Shown here piece by piece: positions 4,150-36,546 of a stretch of DNA of 64,000 nt. The stretch's first letter is position 1. Every line of letters starts with the position of its first letter. The translations under genes and the position numbers were made by a program. The DNA is taken from contig NZ_JAAQPI010000001.1 in NCBI RefSeq assembly GCF_011683955.1, positions 1 through 64,000 of the forward strand, read 5' to 3'. This stretch comes from Pseudomaricurvus alkylphenolicus (lineage in GTDB: Bacteria; Pseudomonadota; Gammaproteobacteria; Pseudomonadales; Cellvibrionaceae). The notes beneath the pieces were generated by a model. That model did no database searches and was not told the origin of the DNA. It saw only the letters and a list, made by a program, of their open reading frames with translations.

Positions 4150-4727
4150 TCGGCGAGAATACCGGTGAGCACCATCTGCATGGCCTTCTCGTACTGGGAC
4201 CAGGCCTTGTCGTCACCCATCTGGATCGAGTTCGACAGATACAGCGACGCCATGCCGGTGGTTTGAGCCAACAGCGTGATAGCGCAGTCGTAGACGTCGC
4301 CTCGCTTGAAATAGCCGGCGTCCATACATTCTCTAACCCGGTCCATCAAAAAACGAAATGGCGGTGCGGATTCTTTTTCGATCACTGCCGGGATTCCGGG
4401 ACTGTCCAGGGGGTTGGTGGCCAGGAAGATCAGGCCAAAGTAATTTCTCTGCTCCCTGGCGAATTCAAAATAACCCCGCACGCAACGGTGGAAACGCTGC
4501 TCTGGACTGTCCTCCTGCAATGACGGATACAGATACTCGCCAAAGGTCACAAAGGACTGCTTTAACAGGGCACACTGGAGTTCATCCTTGTTTTCAAAAT
4601 GGCGGTATAGCGCCATGGGGGTAATGCCTATGACCGAGGCAATCTTGCGCATGCTGATGCCCTTGGCCCCCTGCTCCAGATAGAGCTGGCTGGCAACCGC
4701 CAGTATTTGCTCCCGCGATGTTCTCAA
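4146..4727 (-). CDS. TetR-family transcriptional regulator
   Basis: 193 residues with an N-terminal TetR helix-turn-helix (GISMRKIASVIGITPMALYRHFENKDEL, residues about 23-50) and a helical ligand-binding domain. The start is a TTG: an in-frame TAA lies five codons upstream and no ATG precedes the helix-turn-helix. A G-rich stretch (GGGGGCAGG) just before it can act as ribosome binding site. It lies 56 bases downstream of the flavoprotein gene on the same strand and is probably cotranscribed with it; the GTTTAC palindromes upstream of that gene are candidate operators. Confidence 0.8.
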   Translation of the reverse strand: MRTSREQILAVASQLYLEQGAKGISMRKIASVIGITPMALYRHFENKDELQCALLKQSFVTFGEYLYPSLQEDSPEQRFHRCVRGYFEFAREQRNYFGLIFLATNPLDSPGIPAVIEKESAPPFRFLMDRVRECMDAGYFKRGDVYDCAITLLAQTTGMASLYLSNSIQMGDDKAWSQYEKAMQMVLTGILAD

Positions 4728-4783
4728 AGCCTGCCCCCGTTAAATTTCAGGGCGCCATGCTACCACAACCACGCCCTGGCGGC

Positions 4784-6385
4784 TCAGTCGGATTGGCGAC
4801 GCGCGACCTCAGCCATGACATTCTCACCCAACACCCGCGATGCCGTCATCACACCGGCCATCAGCGCACTGATGACCCCATCGGTGGTGATATCCTGTCC
4901 GGTCAGAAACAGGTTTTCAATCGGTGTGTCCGCACGCAGCCATTGCTGCTGGAATCGCTGCGGTGAGGCTTCAATCCCCATAAAGTTGCCGCTTTTGCGG
5001 CGCAGAAAATGCTGGTAACTGACCGGTGTTGATACTTCGAAATAGTCCACATAGGGTTCGATCTGGGGCGCGTATTTATACAGCTCCGCAAACATTCGTT
5101 TGGCAATGTCGGCCTTTAGCGACTCATAGGCCTGACCGCGTTTTTGCCAGGGTGTATTGGCCCAGGATTCGAAATGGGCAAAATCAGTGGCGGCAAACAT
5201 CTCGATGGTGGCCTTACCCGGAAAGCGTTCAGGCCAACTGCTGTCTTTTGCCGATGGAAAAGTGATAAACGACCAGGGAAACGGCGCCTCGAAATCGTTT
5301 TTGTGAGCCTCGATATTGCCATCCAGATCCGCTCCGGGGTGCGCCCAGATGTTGCCGCCGGAAAGTCCCAGGCTCGCGGCGTCGGCCTTCAGCCCAATAT
5401 TGAGACCCACCGCGCAGTAGGCGTCGTTTACCTGCTGCAATTGCTGTTCACACTGAGTCTTGACGGGCAGGTCATCGGGCAGGAGATCACCAAAAGTATT
5501 CTGCACGCCGGCATTGCTGATAACGCAGGTAGCCATGACTTTCTCACCACTGCTAAGTCGCACGCCGCGGGCACAGTCAGATTCAACCAGTACCTGTGAC
5601 ACTGCTGCCCCGTAGACCACATCCCCGCCTTTGGCTTCAATCACTGGAACAATGGCTTTCGCCAGCGACGCTGCGCCACCCGTCGGGTAATAAGCGCTTC
5701 GATAATAGTGACGCACCAGCATGGCGTGCATGGCAAAGGCGCTGCGTTTGGGAGGCAGGCTGTAGTCTCCGTAATTGCCGCAGATCACCGCAATCAGTTC
5801 TTGGTTGTCGGTTAACTCCGACAGCACGTCGTAGGTTGTCCGCTCGGAGAACTTCAGGAACTCGCCACTTAACGCCTGATAATTCTGGCGACCAAGTTCC
5901 CGGGGCATGGCCTTTTCCGCGAAAAAGTTGCGCGATGAGGCCACCGCCGCAGCCAGCAGCTCCATGTAACGGTCAATGGCCTGATGCTCTTCGGGAAACC
6001 ACTGTTTCAACTCGCGAGCGTAAGCGCCCTCACCCTGGCTGAAGGGGTATTCGCGATCACCGATAAAGATCCGGTTGTAGACTTCGGGCATGGGTTCCCA
6101 CTGCAGGCTCGAATCCGAGACATAGTCGAACAACTTGCTGGTCATGGTGACGGGGCTGTGCAGGTCACCGATGTAGTGCAGGCCGATGTTCCACTCGTAG
6201 CCCTTTCTGGCGTAGGCGTGGGTGCAGCCGCCAATGACATTGTGCTGCTCCAGCAGCAGTACCCGGCGGCCCTTTTGGGACAGCACCGAGGCCACACTCA
6301 GGCCTCCCATGCCGGAGCCGATCACGATGGCGTCGTAGTGCTCCTGCAGCCTGGCGGATTTAAGGTGTGTACCTACATAGGTCAT
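4784..6385 (-). CDS. FAD-dependent retinol saturase / phytoene desaturase-like oxidoreductase
   Basis: 533 residues. The N-terminus holds the FAD-binding Rossmann motif GSGMGG (residues 23-28) followed by LLLEQHNVIGGC. The region GYEWNIGLHYIGD resembles all-trans-retinol 13,14-reductase, and the C-terminus has the family pattern LFLTGQDITTDGVISALMAG. Such enzymes reduce or desaturate isoprenoid double bonds, so an isoprenoid or polycyclic lipid substrate is plausible but unproven. The start was set at the ATG preceded by GAGGAGG at seven bases rather than an ATG eight codons upstream. The promoter side holds two GTTTAC-type palindromes. The TetR gene follows on the same strand. Confidence 0.82.
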   Translation of the reverse strand: MTYVGTHLKSARLQEHYDAIVIGSGMGGLSVASVLSQKGRRVLLLEQHNVIGGCTHAYARKGYEWNIGLHYIGDLHSPVTMTSKLFDYVSDSSLQWEPMPEVYNRIFIGDREYPFSQGEGAYARELKQWFPEEHQAIDRYMELLAAAVASSRNFFAEKAMPRELGRQNYQALSGEFLKFSERTTYDVLSELTDNQELIAVICGNYGDYSLPPKRSAFAMHAMLVRHYYRSAYYPTGGAASLAKAIVPVIEAKGGDVVYGAAVSQVLVESDCARGVRLSSGEKVMATCVISNAGVQNTFGDLLPDDLPVKTQCEQQLQQVNDAYCAVGLNIGLKADAASLGLSGGNIWAHPGADLDGNIEAHKNDFEAPFPWSFITFPSAKDSSWPERFPGKATIEMFAATDFAHFESWANTPWQKRGQAYESLKADIAKRMFAELYKYAPQIEPYVDYFEVSTPVSYQHFLRRKSGNFMGIEASPQRFQQQWLRADTPIENLFLTGQDITTDGVISALMAGVMTASRVLGENVMAEVARRQSD

Positions 6386-6427
6386 GGTGTCCTCCTCATT
6401 TAAGAGCATCCGATCACTGACTCAAAT

Positions 6428-6507
6428 GTTTACGCATGTATACTTATATTCGGCTAATATTATATTGAAATATCATTTCTGTAAATAATTAGTTTACAAC
6501 CGTAAAC
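6428..6507. promoter_or_regulatory. Pair of GTTTAC-N4-GTAAAC-like palindromes, probable regulator operators
   Basis: GTTTACAACCGTAAAC (6492-6507) is a perfect six-base inverted repeat around four bases. GTTTACGCATGTATAC (6428-6443) has the same architecture with one mismatch. Both lie within 125 bases upstream of the flavoprotein start at 6385. The architecture is typical of dimeric TetR-family operators, and a TetR gene follows the flavoprotein. Binding itself is inferred. Confidence 0.5.
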
Positions 6508-6668
6508 TTTGAATTGTTACAGTTTGATAAATCGAGTTATCACTAAATCTGGGATTTGAGGAGTTGAAAAGAAGCGGCGTATCTGGCTGATTTATTGTCG
6601 CCCAACAAAGAAACCAACCAAGAGAATACGCCACTATGGACAAGAGTTGAGTTGTTGAACCAGCAGCC

Positions 6669-6761
6669 TGGGACGCTGTAACCCTGCTCTGTGACCAGAG
6701 CAACTGCCTCTTCTTTGAACTCTTGTGTATAAATGAACCCGTAATGTTTGAGATGAATCAT
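6669..6761 (-). pseudogene. Remnant of an IS3-family transposase OrfA (N-terminal 31 codons)
   Basis: From an ATG at 6761 the translation reads as the beginning of an IS3-type OrfA (YTQEFKEEAVALVTEQGYSVP), the helix-turn-helix entry region. After codon 31 similarity stops, apparently through a small deletion, and the frame runs into unrelated sequence until 6543. No OrfB is present. The element is a decayed fragment. Confidence 0.6.
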
Positions 6762-6798
6762 CTCTCAATAAGGTGTCCAGTGTTATTAGAACACTACA
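6669..6798 (-). mobile_element. Decayed left end of an IS3-family insertion sequence
   Basis: The OrfA remnant is preceded by a terminus-like sequence starting TGTAGTGTTC at 6798 on the minus strand, with GTGTTC and TAACACTGGACACC as expected of an IS end. The spacing between tip and OrfA start (about 37 bases) fits an IS3-family left end. No right end or target duplication was recognised. The rest of the 426-base gap between 6386 and 6811 is AT-rich and otherwise holds only the palindromes at 6428-6507. Confidence 0.45.
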
Positions 6799-6811
6799 CC
6801 CTACACCGGAT

Positions 6812-7447
6812 TCAGCCCGCCGGAGCCTTAAGGCCGGCAACATTGTAGTCAAGGTAGATGCCTCCGAGCTTGTCCAGCCCGCAATTCACGTCACCCATAT
6901 AGGAATTACTGAGGTTCTTGTGGTCTGCCAAACCCTGGATAATGCTGGTCACGCAGAAATTCCAGCGCTGACGCACCATTTTGGGTGGGACATCGGGCAG
7001 GGCCACGGTCAACAACCGGGTAAAGCGCTTCATGGCCTTGTTGGCAAAGCGCCGCAGGATATCCTGGATCTCCGCCCCCCCTTCCATCTCCATACGGGCG
7101 ATAAAGCGAATGGCGTTGTAGCCCCACTCCTCTTCCTTCAACAGTTTGAGATAGGGAGCCAGAAAGGCATTGACGATATCACGTACCTTGGGTTTCTTTT
7201 GGGATTCCACCAGTTCGAATGACGCCTCACGGGCCTCTTCAAACCAGTCCTGGAAAAAGGCGATCACCGCTTCCACCAGGCCAATTTTGCTGCCAAAGTG
7301 GTAGTGCAGCGCCGAATTGTTCTTGGCACCGGCCTCTCGATTGATCATACGCAGAGACACAGCATCGATACCCTGTTCGGCAAATAGCTTGAGGGCCGCA
7401 AGTATCAGGCGCTGCTTGCTGAGTTCCGAGGGGCTTGGGGAAGGCAT
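6812..7447 (-). CDS. TetR-family transcriptional regulator
   Basis: 211 residues. The N-terminal helix-turn-helix is clear (GIDAVSLRMINREAGAKNNSALHYHFGSK, residues about 25-53) and the C-terminal ligand-binding half contains FCVTSIIQGLADH, similar to TetR members that control lipid or steroid catabolism. A near-palindrome centred on TCATATGA (7465-7472), just upstream of the ATG, is a likely autoregulatory site. The gene stands alone between an IS remnant and a gene remnant, so its original targets may be lost or distant. Confidence 0.85.
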   Translation of the reverse strand: MPSPSPSELSKQRLILAALKLFAEQGIDAVSLRMINREAGAKNNSALHYHFGSKIGLVEAVIAFFQDWFEEAREASFELVESQKKPKVRDIVNAFLAPYLKLLKEEEWGYNAIRFIARMEMEGGAEIQDILRRFANKAMKRFTRLLTVALPDVPPKMVRQRWNFCVTSIIQGLADHKNLSNSYMGDVNCGLDKLGGIYLDYNVAGLKAPAG

Positions 7448-7459
7448 ATCAGGCTCCGA

Positions 7460-7477
7460 TTAAGTCATATGATTCAA
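7460..7477. promoter_or_regulatory. Near-palindrome centred on TCATATGA upstream of the TetR gene
   Basis: TTAAGTCATATGATTCAA matches its own reverse complement at 14 of 18 positions, with a perfect eight-base core. It lies 13 bases upstream of the TetR start, as expected for an autoregulatory operator. Confidence 0.4.
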
Positions 7478-7521
7478 TTTGGAACCCGCAACCATATCCC
7501 CAATCTGTTCATTTGGCAACA

Positions 7522-7677
7522 TCAGGAGTTATTGGACATATACCACTCCACATGTTTTTCCGGCAGAGGCAATGGCATCCCGCCGCTGCCCATTTCGTAG
7601 GAGAGATTGGCCGCATAATTGGCCCAGCCCTCGGTAAAGGCGGCATAGAGCAACTCTTTCTGATTCTTGAGTTTTTC
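7522..7677 (-). pseudogene. Orphan C-terminal coding remnant without a start codon
   Basis: After an in-frame TGA (7678-7680) a frame of 51 codons runs to a TGA at 7522, with protein-like composition: LLYAAFTEGWANYAANLSYE, then MPLPLPEKHVEWYMSNNS. There is no start codon in the first 28 codons. It looks like the tail of a larger gene whose front was lost, perhaps with the IS-related rearrangement nearby. I do not recognise the family. It may instead be chance coding potential. Confidence 0.35.
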
Positions 7678-7708
7678 TCAGTTCCCTCTGGGAAAGAAAT
7701 GATGGAAG

Positions 7709-8431
7709 TTATCCCTTATAGGCCAGATAGACCGTATTGGATGATTCTCCGCCCATGTACGGGTTCGGAAAAGTTACGATATGCGACTCCGTCCGCTCGA
7801 ATACCTGGCTGAGCAGGAGGTCAAACGCTGGATCCGGAGCATCGTTGGACCAAAGCCCGAATACGCCTCCGGAGAGGAGTTTGTCGGCCAGTTTATCGAG
7901 CTTTTCTTTGGTGTAAAAGGTGCTGTTGTCCGGGTTGAGCCAATGGCTCGGCGAGTGGTCTATATCCAACAATACCGCATGAACCTGCTGGCTATTACTG
8001 GTTCCATCGAAACCCAATTGCGGCGAGGTGGCCACCTCAAAAAAGTCGGCGCGTACCAGCCGGCAGCGAGGGTCGGAAGTCAGCTGTTCTCCCAGTGGTA
8101 CCAGGCCTCGGCGGTGCCAATCGATGACCGGCTGCATAATATCCACAACCGTGAGTGATCGGACAGACGGGTTTTCCAGAGCCGCGGCCGCGGTATAGCC
8201 CAGCCCCAGACCTCCGACAACCACATCCAATTCTTCCCCCGCCAAATGGGCCAGGCCAAGCTTTGAGAGCTGAACTTCCGCTTCAGTAAACAAGCTGGAC
8301 ATCAGAAACTCATCGTTGAGTTTCACTTCGTAAAGGATTTTTCCTCCGAGGCGGAGGTCGGAGCGCCGCCGTAGGCTGATGTCCCCCAAAGGGGTTTCCT
8401 CATGGTCCAGCTCTTCAAACAGTAACGACAT
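7709..8431 (-). CDS. Spermidine synthase-like protein (aminopropyltransferase/methyltransferase fold)
   Basis: 240 residues. It starts at the ATG giving MSLLFEELDHEETPLGDISLRRR; a GTG five codons earlier is possible. The beta-strand region LGGKILYEVKLNDEFLMSS and the nucleotide-binding loop VVGGLGLGYTAAAAL are typical of SpeE-like proteins, as is the later LLDIDHSP. True polyamine synthases have conserved acidic residues that bind the decarboxylated SAM amine; here the corresponding DID stretch lies at the end of a strand, so aminopropyl transfer is possible but not certain. Many such homologues have unknown substrates. It lies 149 bases downstream of the DUF2149 gene and is probably separate from that operon. 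Confidence 0.7.
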   Translation of the reverse strand: MSLLFEELDHEETPLGDISLRRRSDLRLGGKILYEVKLNDEFLMSSLFTEAEVQLSKLGLAHLAGEELDVVVGGLGLGYTAAAALENPSVRSLTVVDIMQPVIDWHRRGLVPLGEQLTSDPRCRLVRADFFEVATSPQLGFDGTSNSQQVHAVLLDIDHSPSHWLNPDNSTFYTKEKLDKLADKLLSGGVFGLWSNDAPDPAFDLLLSQVFERTESHIVTFPNPYMGGESSNTVYLAYKG

Positions 8432-8580
8432 GCATACCACCCACACATTTTAGAGCTACAATAGCATTAATCATTGCTGACTCACAGCCACCGGGTCCGT
8501 GCTATTGCAAGTCGATGGTGGTCCTGGTAAGCGACGGCAAACTAAACCCCAGAAATGGAACTCTCCATAAATAGCGCACG

Positions 8581-8901
8581 CTATTCACCGATCAAAATCA
8601 ATTTGCCAGTCGCCGGGTCGCGGTAGACCTGCCCTACCGGCTGGTAACCCTGGCCGCCCGCCGAGCCCGCTCCCGGCAATTGCGGCAGTTCTCGACCGCG
8701 CTCGACCACCTGAGATTGCGGCGCCCCCTGCTGGGAAGAATCTTCAGGCTGAAAATGCTGCTGCAGCTGTTCACTCATGGCAATCAGTGCCGCTATCAGA
8801 CCACAGGCAAACACCAGCATCAGATCCAACAAGTTGGCGAGCGGCCCGAGAGGGTCATCATCGCTCTGGGCAAAGCGCCCCTGCTGCCAGCGACTAGGCA
8901 T
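8581..8901 (-). CDS. DUF2149 protein, ExbD/TolR-like partner of the adjacent proton channel
   Basis: 106 residues with one membrane helix (residues about 21-42, ANLLDLMLVFACGLIAALIA). An aspartate at the start of the helix (Asp26, in LLDLMLVF) matches the place of the proton-carrying aspartate of ExbD and TolR. The remainder is a short periplasmic tail. The gene overlaps the end of the ExbB-like gene by eight bases. DUF2149 proteins are known neighbours of CobN-like and MotA/TolQ/ExbB genes, as in the hmu haem operons of Bacteroidota. The likely role is to convert proton-motive force into work on the anchored CobN-like protein. Confidence 0.82.
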   Translation of the reverse strand: MPSRWQQGRFAQSDDDPLGPLANLLDLMLVFACGLIAALIAMSEQLQQHFQPEDSSQQGAPQSQVVERGRELPQLPGAGSAGGQGYQPVGQVYRDPATGKLILIGE

Positions 8902-9424
8902 CCGTCAGCTCCCTTACGGTCTCTGTTTTAACAACACTGTTCTCAACCGCTTTGACAAATTCTCGGGTTTTGTCAGTTATGGACTGCTGCGTTTCCATCG
9001 CCGTTAACAAGTCGTCGTACCAGCGGCGGCGCAAACGTCCCATCACAAAACCCAGAATACCCACCAGCAATCCCAATACGGTGGTATCGAAGGCCACGCT
9101 CATGGCGGTGGTTAACACACTTAACTCCCCATCACCCAGGGCAGATAACCCCGGCCCCAGGGGAATCAGGGTGCCCATTAAACCCAACATGGGAGCAATG
9201 CGGGTAAAAAAGTCGCTGCGTTCTATCCGCTTGGTGGCCTGTTTTTCCACCCAGGCGATATTTCCCGTAGCGTGCCATCGTTTTAGCCCACGCAAGCGTT
9301 CGCCTGCCAGCGTCCCTATATCCATTACGGCAAGGGCCGTCAGAATCAATAGTGACCAGATAACGGGCTGCAGCAGGTAGCTGACCAACAGGTGCAGCAA
9401 TCCCAAGGTTGAAGAAGTAAACAT
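8894..9424 (-). CDS. MotA/TolQ/ExbB-type proton channel protein
   Basis: 176 residues from the ATG at 9424, which has AGAGGAC about seven bases upstream. Three membrane helices are visible: residues about 10-36, then IAPMLGLMGTLIPLGPGLSAL, then AMSVAFDTTVLGLLVGILGFVMG. The GLMGTLIPLG and TTVLGLLVG patterns are those of ExbB/TolQ channels. It stands 19 bases after the cobN-like gene and overlaps the DUF2149 gene, so the three form one operon. The partner set replaces TonB-ExbB-ExbD with CobN-like, ExbB-like and DUF2149 proteins, suggesting an energised inner-membrane complex. Confidence 0.88.
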   Translation of the reverse strand: MFTSSTLGLLHLLVSYLLQPVIWSLLILTALAVMDIGTLAGERLRGLKRWHATGNIAWVEKQATKRIERSDFFTRIAPMLGLMGTLIPLGPGLSALGDGELSVLTTAMSVAFDTTVLGLLVGILGFVMGRLRRRWYDDLLTAMETQQSITDKTREFVKAVENSVVKTETVRELTDA

Positions 9425-9443
9425 AACGTTGTCCTCTAAAATG

Positions 9444-12400
9444 TCACGATTGAGACACTGCGACTGGTACCCTTGAACCTCGGTACCAACCAATACCCAC
9501 CAACAGTAGCCCCAATAACAGCAACCAGTAATAATCAAAGGCCAGTGCCTCAGTCGAGCTGGATTGATCCGATTGGGTTTGTGTCTGACTCGGTTGCTGC
9601 GATGAACTCTGCGAGTCCGAGCTCGGCTGCTTTGCGGCATCTTGCAGTGAAATTTCGGCAACCACTGAGGGCGCTGCCTCCACGCTGGCGTCCACCTTAG
9701 TTGCGCTCAGCAGCTGTTGCAGTTGCTGATACTGCGCGGCCGAAACGTAGCTTTGCAACCAATCAAACAGCGGATGATCGGGACTGGTGTGCCCACTACC
9801 CGGCAAACCGTTGGCCAGCACCAAGTCGGTAAACTGCTGGGCCAGTTGCTCCAGGGTTTGCTGCTCCGCTTGCCAAAATTCTTTTTGCGCGGCCACCAAC
9901 ATCACGGCGAGCATATTGCTTTTTACATGAACGTTATGGTCCTGCTCCAAAAACCGGTCCAGACCCAGCTCCAACTTGTCATCGATATAGACCGCCTTCA
10001 CTTCATCCCAGACCCAGCTTTTAATCACCGCCGGGTTGGTCACCTGCCAGCCCCACAGATATTCCAGAAACTCGCTACCCATAGTGCGGGCGCCGGCATA
10101 ACCTTCATCCATCAACGGGCTTAACCATTGAGGGTTGAGAAAACGGCCACGCAGCTCCGACAGCAATGCGACCTGTAGCGGTTCCATCGACAGGTTTTCG
10201 CTGTCGGGGTGAAACAGAATAAAACTCTCAGGCGCGTCGCCTTTCACCGTTTCCACCGCCAGACTCAAACCGCCCAGGTAATCAAATGCATCGTTGTTAT
10301 CCAACAGGCCGTAAAGGTTACTGGAGCGGCCCATATAGGTGTTACTGACGTTGGCCAGGCGTTGGCGAAATGTGTCCAGCGCCGGTTCTCCATGCAGATT
10401 GGCGCCGTAGGCGTGACCCATACGACGTAAATACACTTGAGCAACCTCGGCGCGGTCCTGCCAGCTGCCGGAGCGCTCCACCATGCGGTTAACACCAGCG
10501 CCATAGGTACCCGGGGCGTCGCCAAAAATGCGATAGGTGGCCTGTCGTCCAGCCTGCTCTGCGCCCAGGCCCTGGCGCAGGGCTAACCTCGCATCTTCCA
10601 CCCAACGGGCGGCGACAAGATTGATGGCAAGGGATTCTTTGCCTGACGAACGCTGACTGCCCAGCGGGGTCAGGGCATTGTTCAGGGCAAGAGTCAGCGC
10701 CGGGTACTGTTCAACAATGAGATCTGCAGATGCGTCCAGAGCCATTAACACGGCCCGTTCCAACCAAACCAGATGAGCGCCATAGAGATCACGGAATAAG
10801 CCGGAGGTGGTAAAGACGGTATCGTGACGCTGTCGGGGTTGACCGAACTCCGTCATGGCGCCCACGTCCAACCGTTTTAGCCCGGTGACAATGCCGCGGC
10901 TACTCCACTCGGGTTGTACCCCCAACATATCGAAACCAAACGCAATCATCGCGCCCTCGTCGCGCACGACATCCGAGGCCCACAGGACCACGGCGTCGCT
11001 GTCTTTACCCTGATCATCAGCCCTGTTGTCACTGGTGTTGGTACGTGCTTTTTGCGCCAGCTCCACACCGACCTGATAACCCAGGCGTGACGGAATCAGA
11101 CTGCCATCCAATGCAAAAAAGTTGCGGCCGGTGGGCAGAGCTTCCGGCGTGCGAATCGGGTCGTTGCCTTTGCCCGGGGCAATGTATCGACCGTTCAAAC
11201 CATTGAGCAGGGCCTGTGCTTCTGCCGCCGGTGAGTCCGCCAGTTTTTGGCGCCAACCACGGGCGACTGATTCTGGCTCATCGGTCCGATCCTGGAGCAT
11301 GGAGCCGAGCAGGGTGTCCACGGCTTCCGGCGTCCAGTCGCGGCCAAACACGTGTAAACCCAAGGGCATAAAGTCCTCTTGCAGATGCGTCAGGTAGTGG
11401 CCCACTTCGTGAACCAGCAGCTCGTCATCCACTTGATCAAATTCAGTAATACCCCGCACCTCCAGCTCGCCGGACATACTGGCCACCAGTTCGTCACGCA
11501 GCTTCAGTTCTTCCACCAACGCTTTGATCGCCACGATAGCCCGATCACGCATGGCGCCAGCCGCCTCGGGGGCAGCTTCATAACTCTCCACCAACTGCCG
11601 CAATTCCAGCAAACGATCATAGAGTTGGGTGCTCTCCAGGGGCGGTGTCAGGTGATCGACCATGACCGCCAATCCGCGCCGTTTGGCCTGAATACCCTCA
11701 CCCACACCATCAACGATATAGGGATATACACTGGGCAGGTCGTCCAGTAATGCGAGAGGATAATCCTCTTGGCTCATACCCACCCGGTGGCGGGGCAAAA
11801 ACTCGTAGGTGGAGTGGCGCCCCAAATGCACCACGGCATCTGCGCCAAAGCCATTGCGAATCCACTGGTAAAACGCCAGGTATTGGTGCGGTGGCGGGAA
11901 CGACAGATTGGCGTGCAGCAGTTCTTCGTTCAGCTCCCATCCGCGCGGCGGCTGTGGCCCCACAAACACCTTGCCAAATTGCAGCCCCGGAATCAGCAGG
12001 CGATTGTCGTGCACCATCACCTTGCCCGGGGCTTTGCCCCAGCCACGCAATCCCTCTACACCCGTGTCGGCGATGGCTTGCACCAACTGCCCTGCGCGTT
12101 CCCAGTCCACCTTGCTGTTGCCAACGGTATCCGGCGATGGGTTGTAGGTGGATTTCAGTTGCTGCAGCAATCGCTCAACCCGCTCCCGGGCCGGATGGTC
12201 GGCGCCATCAATGGCGTGGTGCAGGTCTTCCACCACCCGTCGCAGCAGGCGCTCGCCAATGTCGCGATCCTCCAGGGTCACTGCACGTTGCAGCGCATTG
12301 TGCAAATACCCCAGCGGTCCATTTTCCATTTCCTGCTGTAGCGTGACCGGCAGTTGTTCAAACCAATGTTGATACTGATCAGCCTCCACAGTGGACACCT

Positions 12401-13871
12401 TTTTCGCCATGGCCGCCAGAGCCTGACGATCCTCAGGCAAATTCACACCACGCTCCTGCAATAGATCCAACAGCGCCTGCTGCGATTCGGGCAGCTCACC
12501 GGTGTCGTATCCGGCCGCCTTCAGTTGCTGCAGAATCTGAAATAACGACTCGGGTACATTGAGATTGTCGGCGCCGATATTGTGGCGACCGGGCGGATGG
12601 TTGTAGTAGACAATCGCCACTCGCTTATCGCGATTGGCTTTTTGCTGCAGAGTCAGCCAACGGTCTAACCGGCGGGCCAACTGAGATACTTGACTCTCAA
12701 TAGGTTGAGACCGGCTCAGCTCAACACCGGTGAGTTTATCCAGGCTTGGCACCGTCATCGCCGCAGCGACCATGGGCTCAGCCACTCCTTGCAACTCCGG
12801 CATGGCGACCCGGTAGTGCACGCTGTCCCAGCGCAACCCTTCTTCCGACAACAACCACTCGTCAGCGCTGCTGTCGGTAAGGCGCAGGGCTTTTAGCACC
12901 GGCACATTTAATTGCGCCAGGTGTTTATTGACAGACTCGCGCCCTTCCCCGCCCCCCATCACAAAGTTCTGCACCGACACCACTGCGCCCAATTGATCTT
13001 TATGGGTGAGCAACCATTGCACGGCCTTTACGGTCGCCGGCCCCCACTTGGCCAGCACCCACAGGCAGCCGTGACCCGCACCTTCTATGCGACTGCACAG
13101 CTGTTGCAGCAGCTCGCGCTCACCGGGGCGGTCGCCAGTCTCATAGTCCAGCAATGCCACCCAGCGTTTATCGGCAGCCAGTGTCAGGTTTTCAGGGGAT
13201 ACCGGTTTGCCCTGGTGAAAAATCCGCAGGGAGGGCCGCAATTGGGGGTCGGGCACCGAAGTCGCTGCGCCCGCAAGTGTCATCAGATGTCGAAACAAGC
13301 CGTCCATATTGGTGCTGTCGCGATCGGCCCAGAAGGTTTTCGCCAATAGCCAGGGGCGATACCGTGCAAAATTTGCCAGCTGTTGGCTGGCCCAATCCAT
13401 AGGGTTAATATGACGGTCTGCGGGAGGCTCCGCCATCAGGGCATCAATATCAGCGCCGACCAGCAGAGGATTACGCTGTACATGTGAGTAACGCACCAGA
13501 CGACGGTCACTGTGCACGGCAACAAAAGAAGGGATCGAATTGGGCTGGTGGTTAACAAACCGGTTTAACCACTCAGCAGTTTCACCGAAGACCCCACCGG
13601 CAAACACCAGATCTGCCTCGGCCAGCAGTTTGTGTCGGTCTGCCTCCGACAAATGGATAAACTGATCGGTGGTACGCAATAGAATACGGTGATCGCTATG
13701 TGCCTGCAGGAATCGATGGGCACCACTCAACACATCTGGCGCATTGCGCGGCGATACCACCGCCACCACGGTGGCAGCTTGCAGATTGAAGGCAATCAGC
13801 AGCCACGCACCCAGACACAACATGGTCGACACCCCGCCGGTGCGGGCGAGTCCACAAAAGGAGGAAACCAT
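9444..13871 (-). CDS. Membrane-anchored CobN/HmuS-like chelatase large subunit
   Basis: 1475 residues, homologous along its length to CobN, the large subunit of class I cobaltochelatase (landmarks HLGRHSTYEFLPRHRVGMS, GGFLSLPRFG-like regions are not all intact, but PYIVDGVGEGIQAKRRG and MGSEFLEYLWGWQVT are clear). Unlike cytosolic CobN it begins with a signal-like segment (LCLGAWLLIAFNLQAA) and ends with a Ser/Gln-rich linker and one membrane helix (YYWLLLLGLLLVGIGW) followed by positive residues. The chelatase domain should therefore face the periplasm. No CobS/CobT or other cobalamin synthesis gene is nearby. A cobalamin riboswitch lies in its leader. In Bacteroidota, HmuS of this type with ExbB- and DUF2149-like partners acts on haem; here the riboswitch points to corrinoid or cobalt handling. 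The start could also be the Met 16 codons further in. Confidence 0.85.
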   Translation of the reverse strand: MVSSFCGLARTGGVSTMLCLGAWLLIAFNLQAATVVAVVSPRNAPDVLSGAHRFLQAHSDHRILLRTTDQFIHLSEADRHKLLAEADLVFAGGVFGETAEWLNRFVNHQPNSIPSFVAVHSDRRLVRYSHVQRNPLLVGADIDALMAEPPADRHINPMDWASQQLANFARYRPWLLAKTFWADRDSTNMDGLFRHLMTLAGAATSVPDPQLRPSLRIFHQGKPVSPENLTLAADKRWVALLDYETGDRPGERELLQQLCSRIEGAGHGCLWVLAKWGPATVKAVQWLLTHKDQLGAVVSVQNFVMGGGEGRESVNKHLAQLNVPVLKALRLTDSSADEWLLSEEGLRWDSVHYRVAMPELQGVAEPMVAAAMTVPSLDKLTGVELSRSQPIESQVSQLARRLDRWLTLQQKANRDKRVAIVYYNHPPGRHNIGADNLNVPESLFQILQQLKAAGYDTGELPESQQALLDLLQERGVNLPEDRQALAAMAKKVSTVEADQYQHWFEQLPVTLQQEMENGPLGYLHNALQRAVTLEDRDIGERLLRRVVEDLHHAIDGADHPARERVERLLQQLKSTYNPSPDTVGNSKVDWERAGQLVQAIADTGVEGLRGWGKAPGKVMVHDNRLLIPGLQFGKVFVGPQPPRGWELNEELLHANLSFPPPHQYLAFYQWIRNGFGADAVVHLGRHSTYEFLPRHRVGMSQEDYPLALLDDLPSVYPYIVDGVGEGIQAKRRGLAVMVDHLTPPLESTQLYDRLLELRQLVESYEAAPEAAGAMRDRAIVAIKALVEELKLRDELVASMSGELEVRGITEFDQVDDELLVHEVGHYLTHLQEDFMPLGLHVFGRDWTPEAVDTLLGSMLQDRTDEPESVARGWRQKLADSPAAEAQALLNGLNGRYIAPGKGNDPIRTPEALPTGRNFFALDGSLIPSRLGYQVGVELAQKARTNTSDNRADDQGKDSDAVVLWASDVVRDEGAMIAFGFDMLGVQPEWSSRGIVTGLKRLDVGAMTEFGQPRQRHDTVFTTSGLFRDLYGAHLVWLERAVLMALDASADLIVEQYPALTLALNNALTPLGSQRSSGKESLAINLVAARWVEDARLALRQGLGAEQAGRQATYRIFGDAPGTYGAGVNRMVERSGSWQDRAEVAQVYLRRMGHAYGANLHGEPALDTFRQRLANVSNTYMGRSSNLYGLLDNNDAFDYLGGLSLAVETVKGDAPESFILFHPDSENLSMEPLQVALLSELRGRFLNPQWLSPLMDEGYAGARTMGSEFLEYLWGWQVTNPAVIKSWVWDEVKAVYIDDKLELGLDRFLEQDHNVHVKSNMLAVMLVAAQKEFWQAEQQTLEQLAQQFTDLVLANGLPGSGHTSPDHPLFDWLQSYVSAAQYQQLQQLLSATKVDASVEAAPSVVAEISLQDAAKQPSSDSQSSSQQPSQTQTQSDQSSSTEALAFDYYWLLLLGLLLVGIGWYRGSRVPVAVSQS

Positions 13872-14003
13872 AACAGAGCCCCGATATCCGTTCAGATTCG
13901 GGGTAAACAGAGCAGCAAAATCCGCAAAGAGGAGGCAATGTGGAGAAACCAACGGCCCGGATATCGCCTTCAGGTCACCCCGCCTGAATCAATACTAATC
14001 ACG

Positions 14004-14183
14004 CTCAGGCCGGTCTCCGGGCTTAGGACTGGTTTGCGCCTTCCCATCGATGGTTTGAGCCAAACCGACAGTGGCTGTTGCAAAAACACCCGTGCAATTG
14101 ATGCGCGAATGCGTCCATTACCGTTGCGGGGGCAGCGCAGGATTGTTCACCTGCTTCCCGATTATCCACATGGGCACCTGAAA
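14004..14183 (-). ncRNA. Cobalamin (AdoCbl) riboswitch
   Basis: Reading the minus strand, all hallmark elements occur in order: AGGTGCC at the 5' side, GGGAAGCAGGTGAACAATC followed by GCTGCCCCCGCAACGGTAA (the B12 box region), CACTG, GGGAAGGCG, and AGTCCTAAGCCCGGAGACC ending in GGCCTGA. The element lies about 130 to 310 bases upstream of the cobN-like start and reads in the same direction. The gap between it and the gene would hold the expression platform. Such riboswitches repress downstream genes when adenosylcobalamin is abundant, so the CobN-ExbB-DUF2149 operon should be induced by B12 limitation. Confidence 0.95.
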
Positions 14184-14254: not shown

Positions 14255-15217
14255 TCAGCCGCCGTACTGCTTCTCCAGGGCATCAATCAACTGGGGCAGC
14301 ATATCCGCCGGCAGGTCGTTAATACCCGCTGCCGCTGCGCGCCCACCACCGGTGGGGAATTGTCGACACAAATCCACAGCGCCGGTCTTATTGTTGATCG
14401 GCGCCCGTACGCTCACCAGGTAGTTACCATTGGACTTTTCGGTCAACACGGCGTGTGCCCGGTCGGGGTTGCGATTGGCAAGGTCATTGCTGTAAACACC
14501 ACTGACCCTGCGAGCCCACTTTTCATTGGGCAGAATAAAGGCCGCACTGTTGTCGGTGCTGGCATGGGGTTGGGTATCGGCAGCGGCCGCCATATCCTCC
14601 AGGTAGCCTTGCTCCAGTTTCTGGAAGTCCGGGTTTCCATCCCGGATAAAGTCCAACGGGTTCTTATAAGGCAAGAGTTTTTGATAGAGGTCGGCCGGCT
14701 TAAAGTGCAGATCTTCCAGGTCTGAGCCGTAGCCGTTGTAATTGATATAGATGCCGAGGTTTTCCAACGCCTGGAGGTCCTCAGCCGAGAGTTGCAGACC
14801 TGCGGCCAGCGCTTCAGCGCTCTTTTTCAGATTGTCTCCAAAAGCCCCGACAACTGCCCAACCCAGAAACTCGCCCTTAAGATGTTTGTTGACGAGAATA
14901 CTGGTACAGGTATCGGGGGCTTCGTTGATCAGAGCGGTAAGATTGCCTGAATCCGGGATCTCACCGGGAAAGTGATGATCGGCATAAAATACCGAGGCAC
15001 CCGCTTCGAGAATACGCCCCAGATCCTGGCTGTTCTTGTCCATGGAAATATCCAACACCGTCACACTGTCTCCAGGACCGGCCTCTACGCGTTTTAGCAG
15101 GGAGATATCGCGCTTGACCCCGGTGACCAGCTGGGCATCACTTGGTTCGCTGTTGCGCAGCTGAATCAGGGCACAGATTCCGTCGGCATCGCCATTAAAA
15201 ACATCGTAGTCGGCCAT
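14255..15217 (-). CDS. DHH-family phosphoesterase
   Basis: 320 residues. The N-terminus has the DHH-family metal motif NGDADG (residues 8-13) and the signature DHH at residues 80-82 (FYADHHFPGE), with a further aspartate in LDISMD. The C-terminal region contains a GGG motif (PTGGGRAAAAGI) as in DHHA1 substrate-binding domains. Members split phosphodiester or phosphomonoester bonds with Mn2+; relatives include NrnA, which degrades oligonucleotides and dephosphorylates 3'-phosphoadenosine 5'-phosphate. It lies 67 bases downstream of cysN on the same strand, so a role in removing that product of PAPS-dependent reactions is conceivable but inferred. Confidence 0.8.
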   Translation of the reverse strand: MADYDVFNGDADGICALIQLRNSEPSDAQLVTGVKRDISLLKRVEAGPGDSVTVLDISMDKNSQDLGRILEAGASVFYADHHFPGEIPDSGNLTALINEAPDTCTSILVNKHLKGEFLGWAVVGAFGDNLKKSAEALAAGLQLSAEDLQALENLGIYINYNGYGSDLEDLHFKPADLYQKLLPYKNPLDFIRDGNPDFQKLEQGYLEDMAAAADTQPHASTDNSAAFILPNEKWARRVSGVYSNDLANRNPDRAHAVLTEKSNGNYLVSVRAPINNKTGAVDLCRQFPTGGGRAAAAGINDLPADMLPQLIDALEKQYGG

Positions 15218-34074: not shown

Positions 34075-36546
34075 TTAGTCCCATCGGTAACCGACGGAAA
34101 CACCAATAGTACGTGGACGCGTTACGAATTCACGGTTGTAGGCGCTCGACTCGTTGGTGACGATACCGGTAACACCCTCTTCATTGGTCAGATTGGTGAC
34201 AAAGATACCGGCGCGCCATTGATCCTTGCTGATATTGGCTGAGGCATTCCAGATACTGAAGGCATCCAGTTCTCTGAAGCCAGCTCTGTCTGCATCATTC
34301 ACCACAGTGCCGGAGAAGCTGTCATAGAATTTATCACTGATGGTAGAGGTGACCTGGTCTCGATAGAAACCGTCCACATGCAGGTGCATTTCGGCACCAT
34401 TATCCAGAGGCTTGAAATAGTCCATCGACAGTGACAGCTGGTGCTTGGGCACACCGGGCAACTTGCTGCCATCTTCACCTACCACAGACTCAACGATAAA
34501 GTCGTCGGTCAGCTCCGCGTCCACATATCCGTAACCGAGAGTGGCGGTAATAGACTCGGTCAATTGCGAGTTAATCTCCAGTTCCAGTCCCTGGGAACGT
34601 GCCGATTCGCCGTTAAAGACAAACGGTAGAGAGGCCGGATCGGTAAAGGCTTCCAACTGTACGTCCTGCCAGTCAATATGGAATACGGACAGTGTATAGT
34701 TGGTGTTGTCCCACAGGGTCCCTTTAATACCGATTTCAGTATTGGTCGCAGTATCGGAATCAAACACCAGCAGGCCTTCGTCGGTCTCACAAAGGGCACA
34801 GTTGCCCATGGCCAGACCATTGGCACCGCCGTGGCGGAAACCTTCAGCCCAGGTGAAGTAGACCATGGTATCGTTATCAAGATCATATGAGGTGTTGATC
34901 TTGAAAATATTGTCCTGGAATTCTTCCTTCGATTGACTGGTCAGAGATCCGTTGGGGTCGGTTCCGGTTGGGGAACAATAGGGCCCGCAGACGGGCAACT
35001 GCTGCAACAGTTCCTGTTCGAATTCCTGCCAGAATTGACGCATTCCGACGGTTACCTGCCAGGCATCAGTCACGTGATAGGTTAGCTCACCAAATACCGC
35101 CAGGTCTTCAAAGGAATAATCCCGGTCAAAGTTGAAAACATGATCGGTTAATGCAGTTTGACTTGGCCTTAGGGCACCATTGGCCTCAACAAAGTCTGCA
35201 AAAGTATCAAACAGTCCCGGAATACCAATGATATCGCTAACCAGATGACCGGAGCCGGACAGTTCAGACCACTGGTCAAAACCATGCAGGAATTGCGGAT
35301 CAGTGGTTATGTCAATTCGCTGGTCACGATAGAAGGCACCAACCACCCAGTCTATTTTTCCATCGCCGTTAGAGACCAGGCGAAATTCCTGGGCAAACGA
35401 CTGATCTCGGTACTCGGCCTCCAATGTCGACAAAACGCGGGGAAAACCGCCATAGATAAACGGATCACTATTGGAAATATTCTCCATAAACCCAGTGCCG
35501 TCAGAGGCAGATGATGCCTGGTTGTCGTAGAAGGAGGTCGATGAGCTAAAGGTTGCGAATCCTACGTCCGCGCTGATATCCAACGCATAGAGATCCACCT
35601 CTCGATCCATGGGCGCCCCAAGAGGAATACTGTTCTCGTTTTCATCGCCGATGCGTTGCACACTGAAGTCGTCAGAGCTCTCCTCCTGACGATGATAGGT
35701 CAATTGAGCTTCCACTGTATCGCTGACATCCCACAGCAGCGACGCCCTGAAGTACTTAACGTCAGCACTGTCGACGTCTTCCTGTTCGGTGAACACAAGG
35801 CCACTGTTAAGGGGATCTGAAGGGTCGGCCAACAGGGGTTGTCCGTCACTGCCGAATACAGCCCGCGCATTGGCATCAACAAAGCCGCCAATCTCCTCAT
35901 AACCGAGACCGACGCGCAATGCCATGGTGTCACTCAGCGGGAAGTTGAAGACACCATCGGTGCTGTAGGTTTCTTCCGACGAATCATCGGTGAATGACAG
36001 CTTGCCGGAGATATCCGCACTGAATGCCTGGGTATCCGGTTTTCTGTGAATCAGACGCAGGGTACCGCCCATGGAGCCGGAACCGTAGAGCGTACCCTGA
36101 GGGCCACGCAAGACTTCAACGCGTTCGATATCGTTGATCTTCAGGTTCACAAACAGGGGCGTCTCATCCACATAGGTGGATACCAGCGGCACGCTGATAT
36201 TGGGTTGCAGTGTATTGTTGGAAGCACTGCCCGTGTTGAGGCCGCGAATAATAAGGTTGCTGTTGACTCCACCACCCCGGACACCGGTATCGGCGCTGGT
36301 GAGGCCGGGAATCATGCGGGTCAGGGACTGCAGGTCACTGATCCCGGCATCGGCAATGGCATTGCCGGAAACGGCTGAAATATTATAGGGAATTTCTTCC
36401 ACAGATTGAGCCCGACGTGCCGCAGTAACGATTATCTCTTCCAGCTCGAAGGTCTCTGCACTTGCAGGAATATACCAGCTCGCACTGGCGGCAATAACCG
36501 CGGCTGTCAGCGTCGAACGTTCAAAGGATTTTCTCTTCGGTAGCAT
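34075..36546 (-). CDS. TonB-dependent outer membrane receptor
   Basis: 823 residues. A signal peptide (residues 1-30, ending SWYIPASA) is followed by a TonB-box-like ELEEIIVTAAR and the plug domain (VEEIPYNISAVSGNAIADAG, then GSASNNTL and VEVLRGPQGTLYGSGSMGG). The rest is a beta-barrel with a C-terminal IGVSVGYRWD. Plug signatures with VEVLRGPQGTLYG and TGVRGGGVNSN are common among receptors of marine gammaproteobacteria for carbohydrates, lipids or steroids. The start is preceded by GGAGAG. A strong terminator follows it, and it begins 161 bases downstream of the thiolase operon end. Its ligand is not known. Confidence 0.92.
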   Translation of the reverse strand: MLPKRKSFERSTLTAAVIAASASWYIPASAETFELEEIIVTAARRAQSVEEIPYNISAVSGNAIADAGISDLQSLTRMIPGLTSADTGVRGGGVNSNLIIRGLNTGSASNNTLQPNISVPLVSTYVDETPLFVNLKINDIERVEVLRGPQGTLYGSGSMGGTLRLIHRKPDTQAFSADISGKLSFTDDSSEETYSTDGVFNFPLSDTMALRVGLGYEEIGGFVDANARAVFGSDGQPLLADPSDPLNSGLVFTEQEDVDSADVKYFRASLLWDVSDTVEAQLTYHRQEESSDDFSVQRIGDENENSIPLGAPMDREVDLYALDISADVGFATFSSSTSFYDNQASSASDGTGFMENISNSDPFIYGGFPRVLSTLEAEYRDQSFAQEFRLVSNGDGKIDWVVGAFYRDQRIDITTDPQFLHGFDQWSELSGSGHLVSDIIGIPGLFDTFADFVEANGALRPSQTALTDHVFNFDRDYSFEDLAVFGELTYHVTDAWQVTVGMRQFWQEFEQELLQQLPVCGPYCSPTGTDPNGSLTSQSKEEFQDNIFKINTSYDLDNDTMVYFTWAEGFRHGGANGLAMGNCALCETDEGLLVFDSDTATNTEIGIKGTLWDNTNYTLSVFHIDWQDVQLEAFTDPASLPFVFNGESARSQGLELEINSQLTESITATLGYGYVDAELTDDFIVESVVGEDGSKLPGVPKHQLSLSMDYFKPLDNGAEMHLHVDGFYRDQVTSTISDKFYDSFSGTVVNDADRAGFRELDAFSIWNASANISKDQWRAGIFVTNLTNEEGVTGIVTNESSAYNREFVTRPRTIGVSVGYRWD

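Follow-up and report, generated by a model that had tools for sequence, protein, structure and literature searches.

A recurrent cobalamin riboswitch-led gene trio in Pseudomaricurvus alkylphenolicus and other gammaproteobacteria and its possible role as a periplasmic corrinoid chelatase

What does a relative of the cobaltochelatase subunit CobN do when it is encoded under a cobalamin (B12) riboswitch, next to a gene for a putative proton channel? The question is raised by Pseudomaricurvus alkylphenolicus (NCBI RefSeq assembly GCF_011683955.1, contig NZ_JAAQPI010000001.1), in which the 64,000-nucleotide stretch analysed here (hereafter the window, to which all positions refer) contains a minus-strand unit of three genes, encoding a CobN-like protein, an ExbB-type protein and a DUF2149 protein (hereafter the trio). 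An earlier note on this DNA had placed the unit, with its riboswitch, at 8581-14183; all of the parts that it listed are present, but the riboswitch match runs on to 14196. A class I chelatase depends on an AAA+ partner driven by ATP (CobS/CobT or ChlI/ChlD), and such a partner would be unworkable in the periplasm because there is no ATP there. The reading that we tentatively favour, based on sequence comparisons, is that the unit may encode a B12-repressed, inner-membrane-anchored, periplasm-facing class I corrinoid chelatase, probably a cobalt-inserting one, in which an ExbB-type motor would stand in for CobS/CobT.

Riboswitch control and recurrence of the trio

The riboswitch is complete, as had been claimed. 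The match to Rfam family RF00174 (14196-13991, minus strand) covers model positions 1-189 of 189 with 84.6 bits against a gathering threshold of 31.5 (E 2.1e-19), and it is the sole Rfam match in the window at gathering thresholds. A covariance model of our own, R1, scores the window riboswitch at 97.7 bits, the window being among the 11 riboswitches from which the model was built. The riboswitch of btuB in the same genome (L007) was left out of R1, while some R1 sequences share genomes with loci surveyed below (e.g. L050/L095 and L051/L128), so that the matches at those loci are not independent of the model.

Just 5' of the CobN-like start lies a 25-nucleotide (nt) hairpin (13879-13903, minus strand) with a folding energy of -13.2 kcal/mol (z -2.8 relative to shuffled sequences). 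Its 3' arm contains GGGG, a candidate ribosome-binding site 7 bases before the CobN-like ATG, and its 5' arm has an alternative partner at about 13975-13988, directly behind the aptamer, in the minimum-energy fold of 13862-13990. This hairpin may plausibly serve as a translational switch. The entire riboswitch leader folds no better than its shuffles, and scans for promoters and terminators returned fewer sites than in shuffled sequences.

The earlier note had proposed looking for the same trio with cobalamin riboswitches in other genomes, and such loci recur. Searching with a profile of 11 window-type sequences yielded 280 relatives in named genomes, the best 80 of which were taken as loci. 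Most of the hosts are gammaproteobacteria (Pseudomonas, Stutzerimonas, Azotobacter, Methylophaga, Marinobacterium, Zhongshania, Billgrantia, Colwellia and Steroidobacter), and the remainder includes some Nitrospirota, Nitrospinota, Campylobacterota and others. All three genes are present at 78 of the 80 loci, the other two being cut by contig ends, and a same-strand cobalamin riboswitch lies upstream at 65 (searched with R1, and with Rfam on 15 of the 80). In 48 of these 65 cases no more than 600 nt separate the riboswitch from the beginning of the CobN match, in 11 it stands behind btuB or cobB, and in six another gene lies between. The other 15 loci comprise two with a divergent riboswitch only, four with too little upstream DNA and nine where no nearby riboswitch reached the threshold. 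When the filters were switched off, the best match at five of these nine fell immediately 5' of the trio and on its strand (E 1e-4 to 0.03), and L112 has a riboswitch 7.9 kb upstream, while L067, L094 and L125 have none even at this setting.

Related loci of another kind do not share this control. None of nine CobN-like loci of the HmuS type or mostly linked to TonB receptors (L009 and L036-L043, the receptors of L036-L043 having been recognised by eye) has a cobalamin riboswitch according to R1, nor do L039-L043 according to Rfam. Comparing riboswitches at 65 of 76 window-type loci with 0 of 9 gives p 4e-7 by Fisher's exact test, uncorrected for relatedness. Among 369 evenly sampled genomes of the class, some of which also belong to the named set, a DUF2149 match was found in 21, including that of P. 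alkylphenolicus. The 20 loci from the other 20 genomes consist of 11 of the window type, eight of the other CobN-like type and one TolR-like locus; Rfam finds a cobalamin riboswitch at 8 of the 11 window-type loci. Control by B12, as had been suggested for the window, is thus indicated by the riboswitch both here and at most related loci. In one close relative, a thiamine pyrophosphate (TPP) riboswitch lies directly behind the trio (L045, 9347-9477).

Relationship to CobN and HmuS

The window CobN-like protein (9444-13871, minus strand, about 1475 amino acids (aa), BtuS-like) matches PF02514 (CobN-Mg_chel) with 840 bits. Its best match in the Protein Data Bank (PDB) is HmuS (9d26), the haem dechelatase of Bacteroidota, followed by ChlH and CobN. 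It scores below the equivalog cut-offs of the NCBIfam CobN models, the three best of which give 593, 572 and 500 bits against cut-offs of 1619, 1248 and 822, and its identity is 28% to canonical CobN and 27% to a second, HmuS-type protein in its own genome. In a FastTree phylogeny of 92 sequences (73 of the 80 loci, after leaving out four near-duplicates and short sequences, 8 of the 11 class-sample loci and one canonical CobN among them), the window type forms one clade (support 0.90) that groups with the one canonical CobN (support 1.00, rooted on HmuS).

The catalytic His, equivalent to HmuS His538 and to the His of CobN and ChlH, is kept in 92 of 92 aligned sequences; in the window its codon lies at 11814-11816 (minus strand) within HLGRHST, where the motif HLGRHS compares with HFG(T/A)HG in HmuS. 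Where HmuS has its second active-site His, His1209 (in LSLDHxxEFMGG), all 82 window-type sequences carry Asp (at least two of them, L044 and L068, come from one contig), and so do the solved CobN structures. The window codon for this Asp, within LDNNDAFDYLGG, is at 10290-10292 (minus strand). At this place the seven HmuS-type or receptor-linked relatives of the tree are divided, with His in three and Asp in four, and the residue alone therefore does not separate all groups. His254 of HmuS site 1 aligns with a Gly of the window protein in a low-confidence stretch of the pairwise alignment, and Met79 falls outside the alignment. The enlarged domain IV of HmuS is also missing: about 290 residues of the HmuS-type protein of the same genome are absent from the window protein, which has no Met-rich stretch, although the insertion of that HmuS-type protein is itself not Met-rich.

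The window protein is not HmuS, given that it has Asp for the second active-site His, as in CobN, and that the genome contains a separate, true HmuS operon. The gene in question scores 1112 bits to HmuS (PDB 9d26), follows a TonB receptor gene, is accompanied by ExbB and DUF2149 genes of its own, and has no cobalamin riboswitch. It would be possible to regard the B12 riboswitch of the window as incidental and the unit as one for haem or porphyrin handling, in keeping with the superfamily relation to HmuS and ChlH. This is very improbable, considering that the true HmuS operon exists separately and that at least one recognised B12 gene lies within the examined DNA at 38 of the 80 loci (haem genes were uncounted). 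A haem function was ruled out as the leading interpretation by the active-site Asp, the lack of domain IV enlargement and the separate HmuS operon. Membership of the canonical cobaltochelatases was likewise rejected, on score, predicted location and a missing partner, though the activity may be the same.

The separate operon is itself of interest, as it presents a layout like that of hmuR-hmuS-hmuT-hmuU-hmuV in a gammaproteobacterium (L009, 7509-16083; G000:C11:1213508-1222082): a TonB receptor, the HmuS-type protein, a 215-aa protein with no Pfam match that looks multi-helical, ExbB and DUF2149 (HmuY was not sought). PMC10100974 states that the complete six-gene hmu operon is found only in Bacteroidetes. 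Two further loci, L176 of Steroidobacter (4544-8446) and L227 of genome G432 (9409-13269), represent another CobN-like subgroup behind receptor-like genes; it falls in the tree with the receptor-linked relatives and not with canonical CobN, yet the L176 protein passes an NCBIfam CobN cut-off (1756 bits).

Predicted location and the motor proteins

The earlier note had described an N-terminal signal-like segment and a C-terminal membrane helix in the CobN homologue, and both can be seen and recur in relatives. In the window, a predicted Sec signal peptide spans residues 1-33 (13773-13871, minus strand, ending in LQAA), and a C-terminal transmembrane helix (9483-9542, minus strand, by hydropathy) is followed by an Arg-containing tail predicted to be cytoplasmic. 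Simple hydropathy picks out a hydrophobic segment at the N-terminus of 74 of 79 relatives (by eye, its end is mostly AxA) and the C-terminal helix in 75 of 80, mostly then followed by Arg; the five C-terminal misses include L124, which is truncated by its contig. The CobN-like body is therefore predicted, from the signal peptide and positive-inside logic, to be periplasmic and anchored by its C-terminus, in agreement with the periplasmic complex envisaged earlier. According to PMC12583661 and PMC13227078, HmuS has been proposed to be membrane-bound and periplasm-facing, with experimental support.

The second gene (8894-9424, minus strand, 176 aa) encodes an ExbB/TolQ-type proton-channel protein, as had been recognised: PF01618 (MotA_ExbB) matches with 43.9 bits (cut-off 22.9), the AlphaFold2 model has a pLDDT of 94.7, and its 20 best Foldseek matches in the PDB are all TolQ/ExbB chains (probability 0.96-1.00, with E only 0.013-0.048). 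The third (8581-8901, minus strand) encodes a 106-aa, HmuV-like protein with one predicted membrane helix, matched by PF09919 (DUF2149) with 45.3 bits (cut-off 27.1). Its Asp26 (codon 8824-8826, minus strand) lies in the helix and is invariant in 18 of 18 aligned sequences, the window and 17 of the relatives. The window-type DUF2149 proteins are homologous to the other DUF2149 group (hhalign E 3.7e-8). The earlier note had likened this Asp to that of ExbD; the Asp stands, but homology to ExbD is unproven, as there is no PF02472 match and hhalign against seven ExbD/TolR sequences is not significant (probability 3.8%). The AlphaFold model consists of one helix and a poorly predicted tail, with no ExbD-like periplasmic domain at this low confidence, and the only pointers towards ExbD are the helix Asp and a weak PF09919 match (E 9e-4) to a protein of L055 that is TolR-like by eye. 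The identification of DUF2149 as an ExbD homologue was therefore rejected on the profile comparison and the poor model beyond one helix, and ExbD is kept as an analogy by position.

B12 capacity of the hosts

The earlier note had reported no cobalamin synthesis genes, which is true as far as its reader saw, but B12 genes occur elsewhere in the genome. These are btuB, btuC, btuD, btuF, cbiB, cobD, cobQ, cobU, cobT (of the dimethylbenzimidazole (DMB) kind), cobC, cobS and cobO; BtuB, BtuC and CobC score below NCBIfam equivalog cut-offs, and BtuD was named by eye and place. The genes cobO, cobQ, cbiB, cobD, cobU, cobS, cobT and cobC belong to steps after cobyrinate a,c-diamide, which is the product of a cobaltochelatase. 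Three cobalamin riboswitches occur in the genome. Besides that of the trio, one leads btuB-btuC-btuD-cbiB-cobD-btuF, with cobQ and cobU-cobT-cobC-cobS in the vicinity, and another stands ahead of cobO. The ring marker CbiC is absent (the genome-wide search did not extend to CobB and other ring genes), as is the cobaltochelatase CobT subunit (PF06213; CobS, ChlI and ChlD were not searched).

The absence of CbiC is shared by most of the hosts searched. In a CbiC survey of 50 of the 80 loci, with isolates taken first and genome completeness not given, CbiC was absent from 45 of the 49 other trio genomes, which indicates that the trio occurs mainly in corrinoid users and not in makers. This point bears on the main rival explanation. 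The ExbB-type and DUF2149 proteins could power BtuB or another partner, with the CobN-like body acting as a corrinoid receptor or gate without any metal chemistry, and such an uptake energiser would suit the corrinoid importers that genomes without CbiC must be. The gene order of Billgrantia L129, riboswitch-btuB-cobN-exbB-DUF2149-btuF-btuC-btuD-cobB-cobO-cobQ (labels from BLAST to L054 proteins), points the same way, as does the role of this kind given to hmuU/hmuV in PMC10100974. Several observations weigh against it. The catalytic His is kept throughout; no BtuB-like receptor was recognised at 49 of the 80 loci, although the examined DNA is short at some, which argues that the motor pair goes with the chelatase and not with a receptor; the low-confidence DUF2149 model has no ExbD-like periplasmic domain; and the P. 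alkylphenolicus genome has six ExbD-family proteins for the task. On balance, we consider uptake energising somewhat unlikely.

Zhongshania marina and three genomes of its family bear on the question from the other side. CobG was found above cut-off in 4 of 21 genomes searched, G374 (Zhongshania marina), G423, G429 and G430, all of one family. In G374, G423 and G429 a riboswitch is followed by cbiD, cbiC, cobI, cobJ, cbiET and cobM, all on one strand, while cobK and cobG are encoded on the opposite strand; G429 has two transporter-like genes between cbiD and cbiC, and the G430 contig holds only the end of the cluster. In G374, CobG, CobI, CobM, CbiD and CbiE/T were named by NCBIfam, CbiC by Pfam, and CobJ and CobK by eye, and genes of the other three genomes were named by BLAST to G374. 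This gene set represents the oxygen-using route, with late cobalt addition. In each of the four genomes the one PF02514 gene present belongs to the window type (50-51% identity), and a riboswitch lies immediately 5' of it. The draft genome G374 contains no CbiX, CbiK or CobT (in G423, G429 and G430 these were unsearched, as were CobS, ChlI and ChlD in all four). Since the window-type protein is the only class I chelatase found beside the aerobic ring genes, it must, judging by gene content, be the cobalt inserter in these genomes unless another chelatase exists. A fuller scenario, in which Zhongshania marina and its relatives would make the ring inside, export it metal-free, have it charged with cobalt outside by a proton-motor chelatase and re-import it through the B12 importer, is unlikely. 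Elsewhere, the CbiC-bearing trio genomes of L088 and L097 have CbiX and can therefore add cobalt early, and in Azotobacter L099 the trio coexists with CobG and a canonical CobN.

Proposed function

The favoured reading, a corrinoid chelatase facing the periplasm, would work as follows. When B12 is short, the riboswitch would permit expression of the operon, and the CobN-like body would take a periplasmic corrinoid and alter its metal state, most likely by placing cobalt into a metal-free corrinoid so that the cell could adenosylate and finish it. The ExbB-type channel and the DUF2149 protein would draw on the proton gradient to do the conformational work, through the C-terminal helix of the chelatase. 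What the sequences show are the parts and their constant association, the riboswitch, the active-site residues and the lack of the ring marker in most of the hosts searched; the location, substrate and direction of the reaction, and the driving of the chelatase by the motor, are inferred. The proton gradient is suggested as the energy source by the near-constant ExbB-type partnership together with the loci at which no BtuB-like receptor was recognised, while insertion is favoured over removal because of repression by B12 and the CobN-like Asp.

Removal had been put forward earlier beside insertion, and it forms a second alternative, in which an HmuS-like protein would strip metal in the periplasm, either cobalt from corrinoids or a wrong metal before cobalt. 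HmuS is the closest solved structure, the gene layout is that of hmuSTUV and of the zinc-regulated PA1922-1925 genes, and PepSY_TM proteins lie nearby at some loci. Control is by B12, however, and not by a metal. Most trio genomes searched lack CbiC, and for a cell without ring synthesis there is no obvious benefit in freeing cobalt during B12 shortage. Asp uniformly replaces the second His of HmuS in the window type (though likewise Asp in four of the seven receptor-linked relatives), His254 is replaced by Gly in a low-confidence stretch, and the enlarged domain IV is absent. Removal is therefore less supported than insertion, and a dechelatase or metal swap appears decidedly unlikely.

It is also important to note that several points weigh against a cobalt-inserting periplasmic enzyme. 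Such an enzyme would miss a precursor made in the cytoplasm, and Zhongshania would then need either export and re-uptake or a chelatase that has not been found. In the aerobic route, CobB works in the cytoplasm and ahead of cobalt insertion, which sits poorly with insertion outside, and the position of cobB before cobN at some loci would put a cytoplasmic step ahead of a periplasmic one. We found no paper, in literature under CC0, CC BY and CC BY-SA licences, describing metal-free corrinoids as a common nutrient. PepSY_TM proteins in some operons could equally point to removal or reduction, and uptake energising explains hosts without ring synthesis at least as simply. In addition, the P. alkylphenolicus genome has two CbiX-family matches (G000:C8:88535-88846, 65.7 bits, and C4:134426-134572, 25.2 bits), and CobT (PF06213) matches in 9 of 50 trio genomes, eight of them over the cut-off and some nearly full-length; these genomes differ from those with CbiC. 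Finally, the related HmuS works in the metal-removing direction, according to PMC12583661.

Comparison with known systems

The earlier note had compared the unit with the hmuS-hmuU-hmuV genes of Bacteroidota. The resemblance holds, but the comparison is too narrow, as gammaproteobacteria have both the HmuS operon of the genome studied here and PA1922-PA1925. With the HmuS/HmuT/HmuU/HmuV operon (PDB 9d26; PMC12583661) the window unit shares the superfamily, the signal and anchor, the C-terminal helix, the equivalent of His538 and the order of a CobN-like gene followed by ExbB-type and DUF2149 genes. It differs in the active-site and domain IV features described above (Asp for His1209, Gly at His254 with low confidence, no enlarged domain IV), in having a B12 riboswitch as opposed to iron control, and in the absence of an HmuY or HmuT gene between the CobN-like and ExbB genes. 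PA1922-PA1925 of the Pseudomonas aeruginosa Zur regulon, encoding a TonB receptor, a CobN-like protein, an ExbD/ExbB-like protein and DUF2149, have a shared layout but are under zinc control according to PMC4542158 and PMC9431628. Other CobN-like proteins with this arrangement, taken from the class sample, lie outside the window-type clade; the tree does not include that of P. aeruginosa. Cobaltochelatase CobN (PDB 7c6o and 9uk9) resembles the window protein in its active-site His and Asp, tree grouping and B12 gene context. In contrast, the window protein has 28% identity to it, lies below the NCBIfam cut-offs and is predicted to be secreted and membrane-anchored, while CobT is missing from its genome and the ring marker from most searched hosts.

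Two relevant kinds of system are already known in print, and the trio clade builds on a known kind. BtuS of Rodionov et al. (2003), quoted as a third CobN-like type in PMC6460266, is likened to the window protein by that description. PMC10100974 notes hmu-like operons in Bacteroides with a cobalamin riboswitch and a possible role in cobalamin metabolism; such a riboswitch-led operon has two receptor genes and was compared by description only. In the literature covered (CC0, CC BY and CC BY-SA), we found no paper that treats the gammaproteobacterial B12-controlled trio clade as one unit, sets it apart from HmuS, reports hosts that lack ring synthesis, or presents the Zhongshania exclusion case or the idea of a motor replacing an ATPase.

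The present analysis defines a recurrent B12-controlled gene trio and a testable idea, that the proton gradient powers a metal chelatase. If correct, this would represent a third energy source for a metal chelatase, with an ExbB-type proton motor replacing an AAA+ ATPase and cobalt inserted outside the cytoplasm, and a single type of periplasmic machine would have been put to three uses, in versions for haem (HmuS), zinc (PA1922-1925) and B12. The idea would further account for the completion of B12 in bacteria that have aerobic ring genes but no canonical CobN, and would correct the annotation of such genes as cytoplasmic cobaltochelatase.

Neighbouring genes and locus layout

The B12 genes near the 80 loci, labelled by BLAST to identified proteins and partly by eye, include btuB-like receptors at 31 loci (a label that may cover other receptors), cobB at 18 and cobO at 18. 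At nine loci cobB stands directly before cobN, and at nine cobO lies within 1.8 kb behind it. The order at Cognaticolwellia L116 is riboswitch-btuM-like-cobB-cobN-exbB-DUF2149-cobO, in which CobB, CobN and CobO follow the order of the biochemical steps. The btuM-like gene of L116 (6798-7415), in the gap between the riboswitch and cobB/cobN, encodes a small membrane protein that matches the cobalamin transporter structure 8c7p with 67 bits; a small membrane protein in the same position at L128 (8383-8955) is BtuM-like by eye only.

PepSY_TM membrane proteins occur in or beside cobalamin-riboswitch operons at L093 (7319-8896), L111 (7298-8815), L228 (5822-7324) and L229 (7643-9235), immediately before the CobN-like gene at the first three; L114 and L112 are similar by eye. 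The PepSY_TM fold is linked elsewhere to periplasmic metal reduction, and these proteins are candidate periplasmic corrinoid or metal reductases.

Within the window, the likely start of the CobN-like gene is the ATG at 13871 and its end is at 9444; the ATG of exbB follows at 9424, and the exbB and DUF2149 genes overlap by 8 bases. The unit is flanked by a DHH-family gene (14255-15217) and a weakly spermidine-synthase-like gene (7709-8446). Further along, stretches resembling TonB-dependent receptors, with weak similarity to BtuB, lie at 35845-36522 on the minus strand and 47834-48439 on the plus strand.

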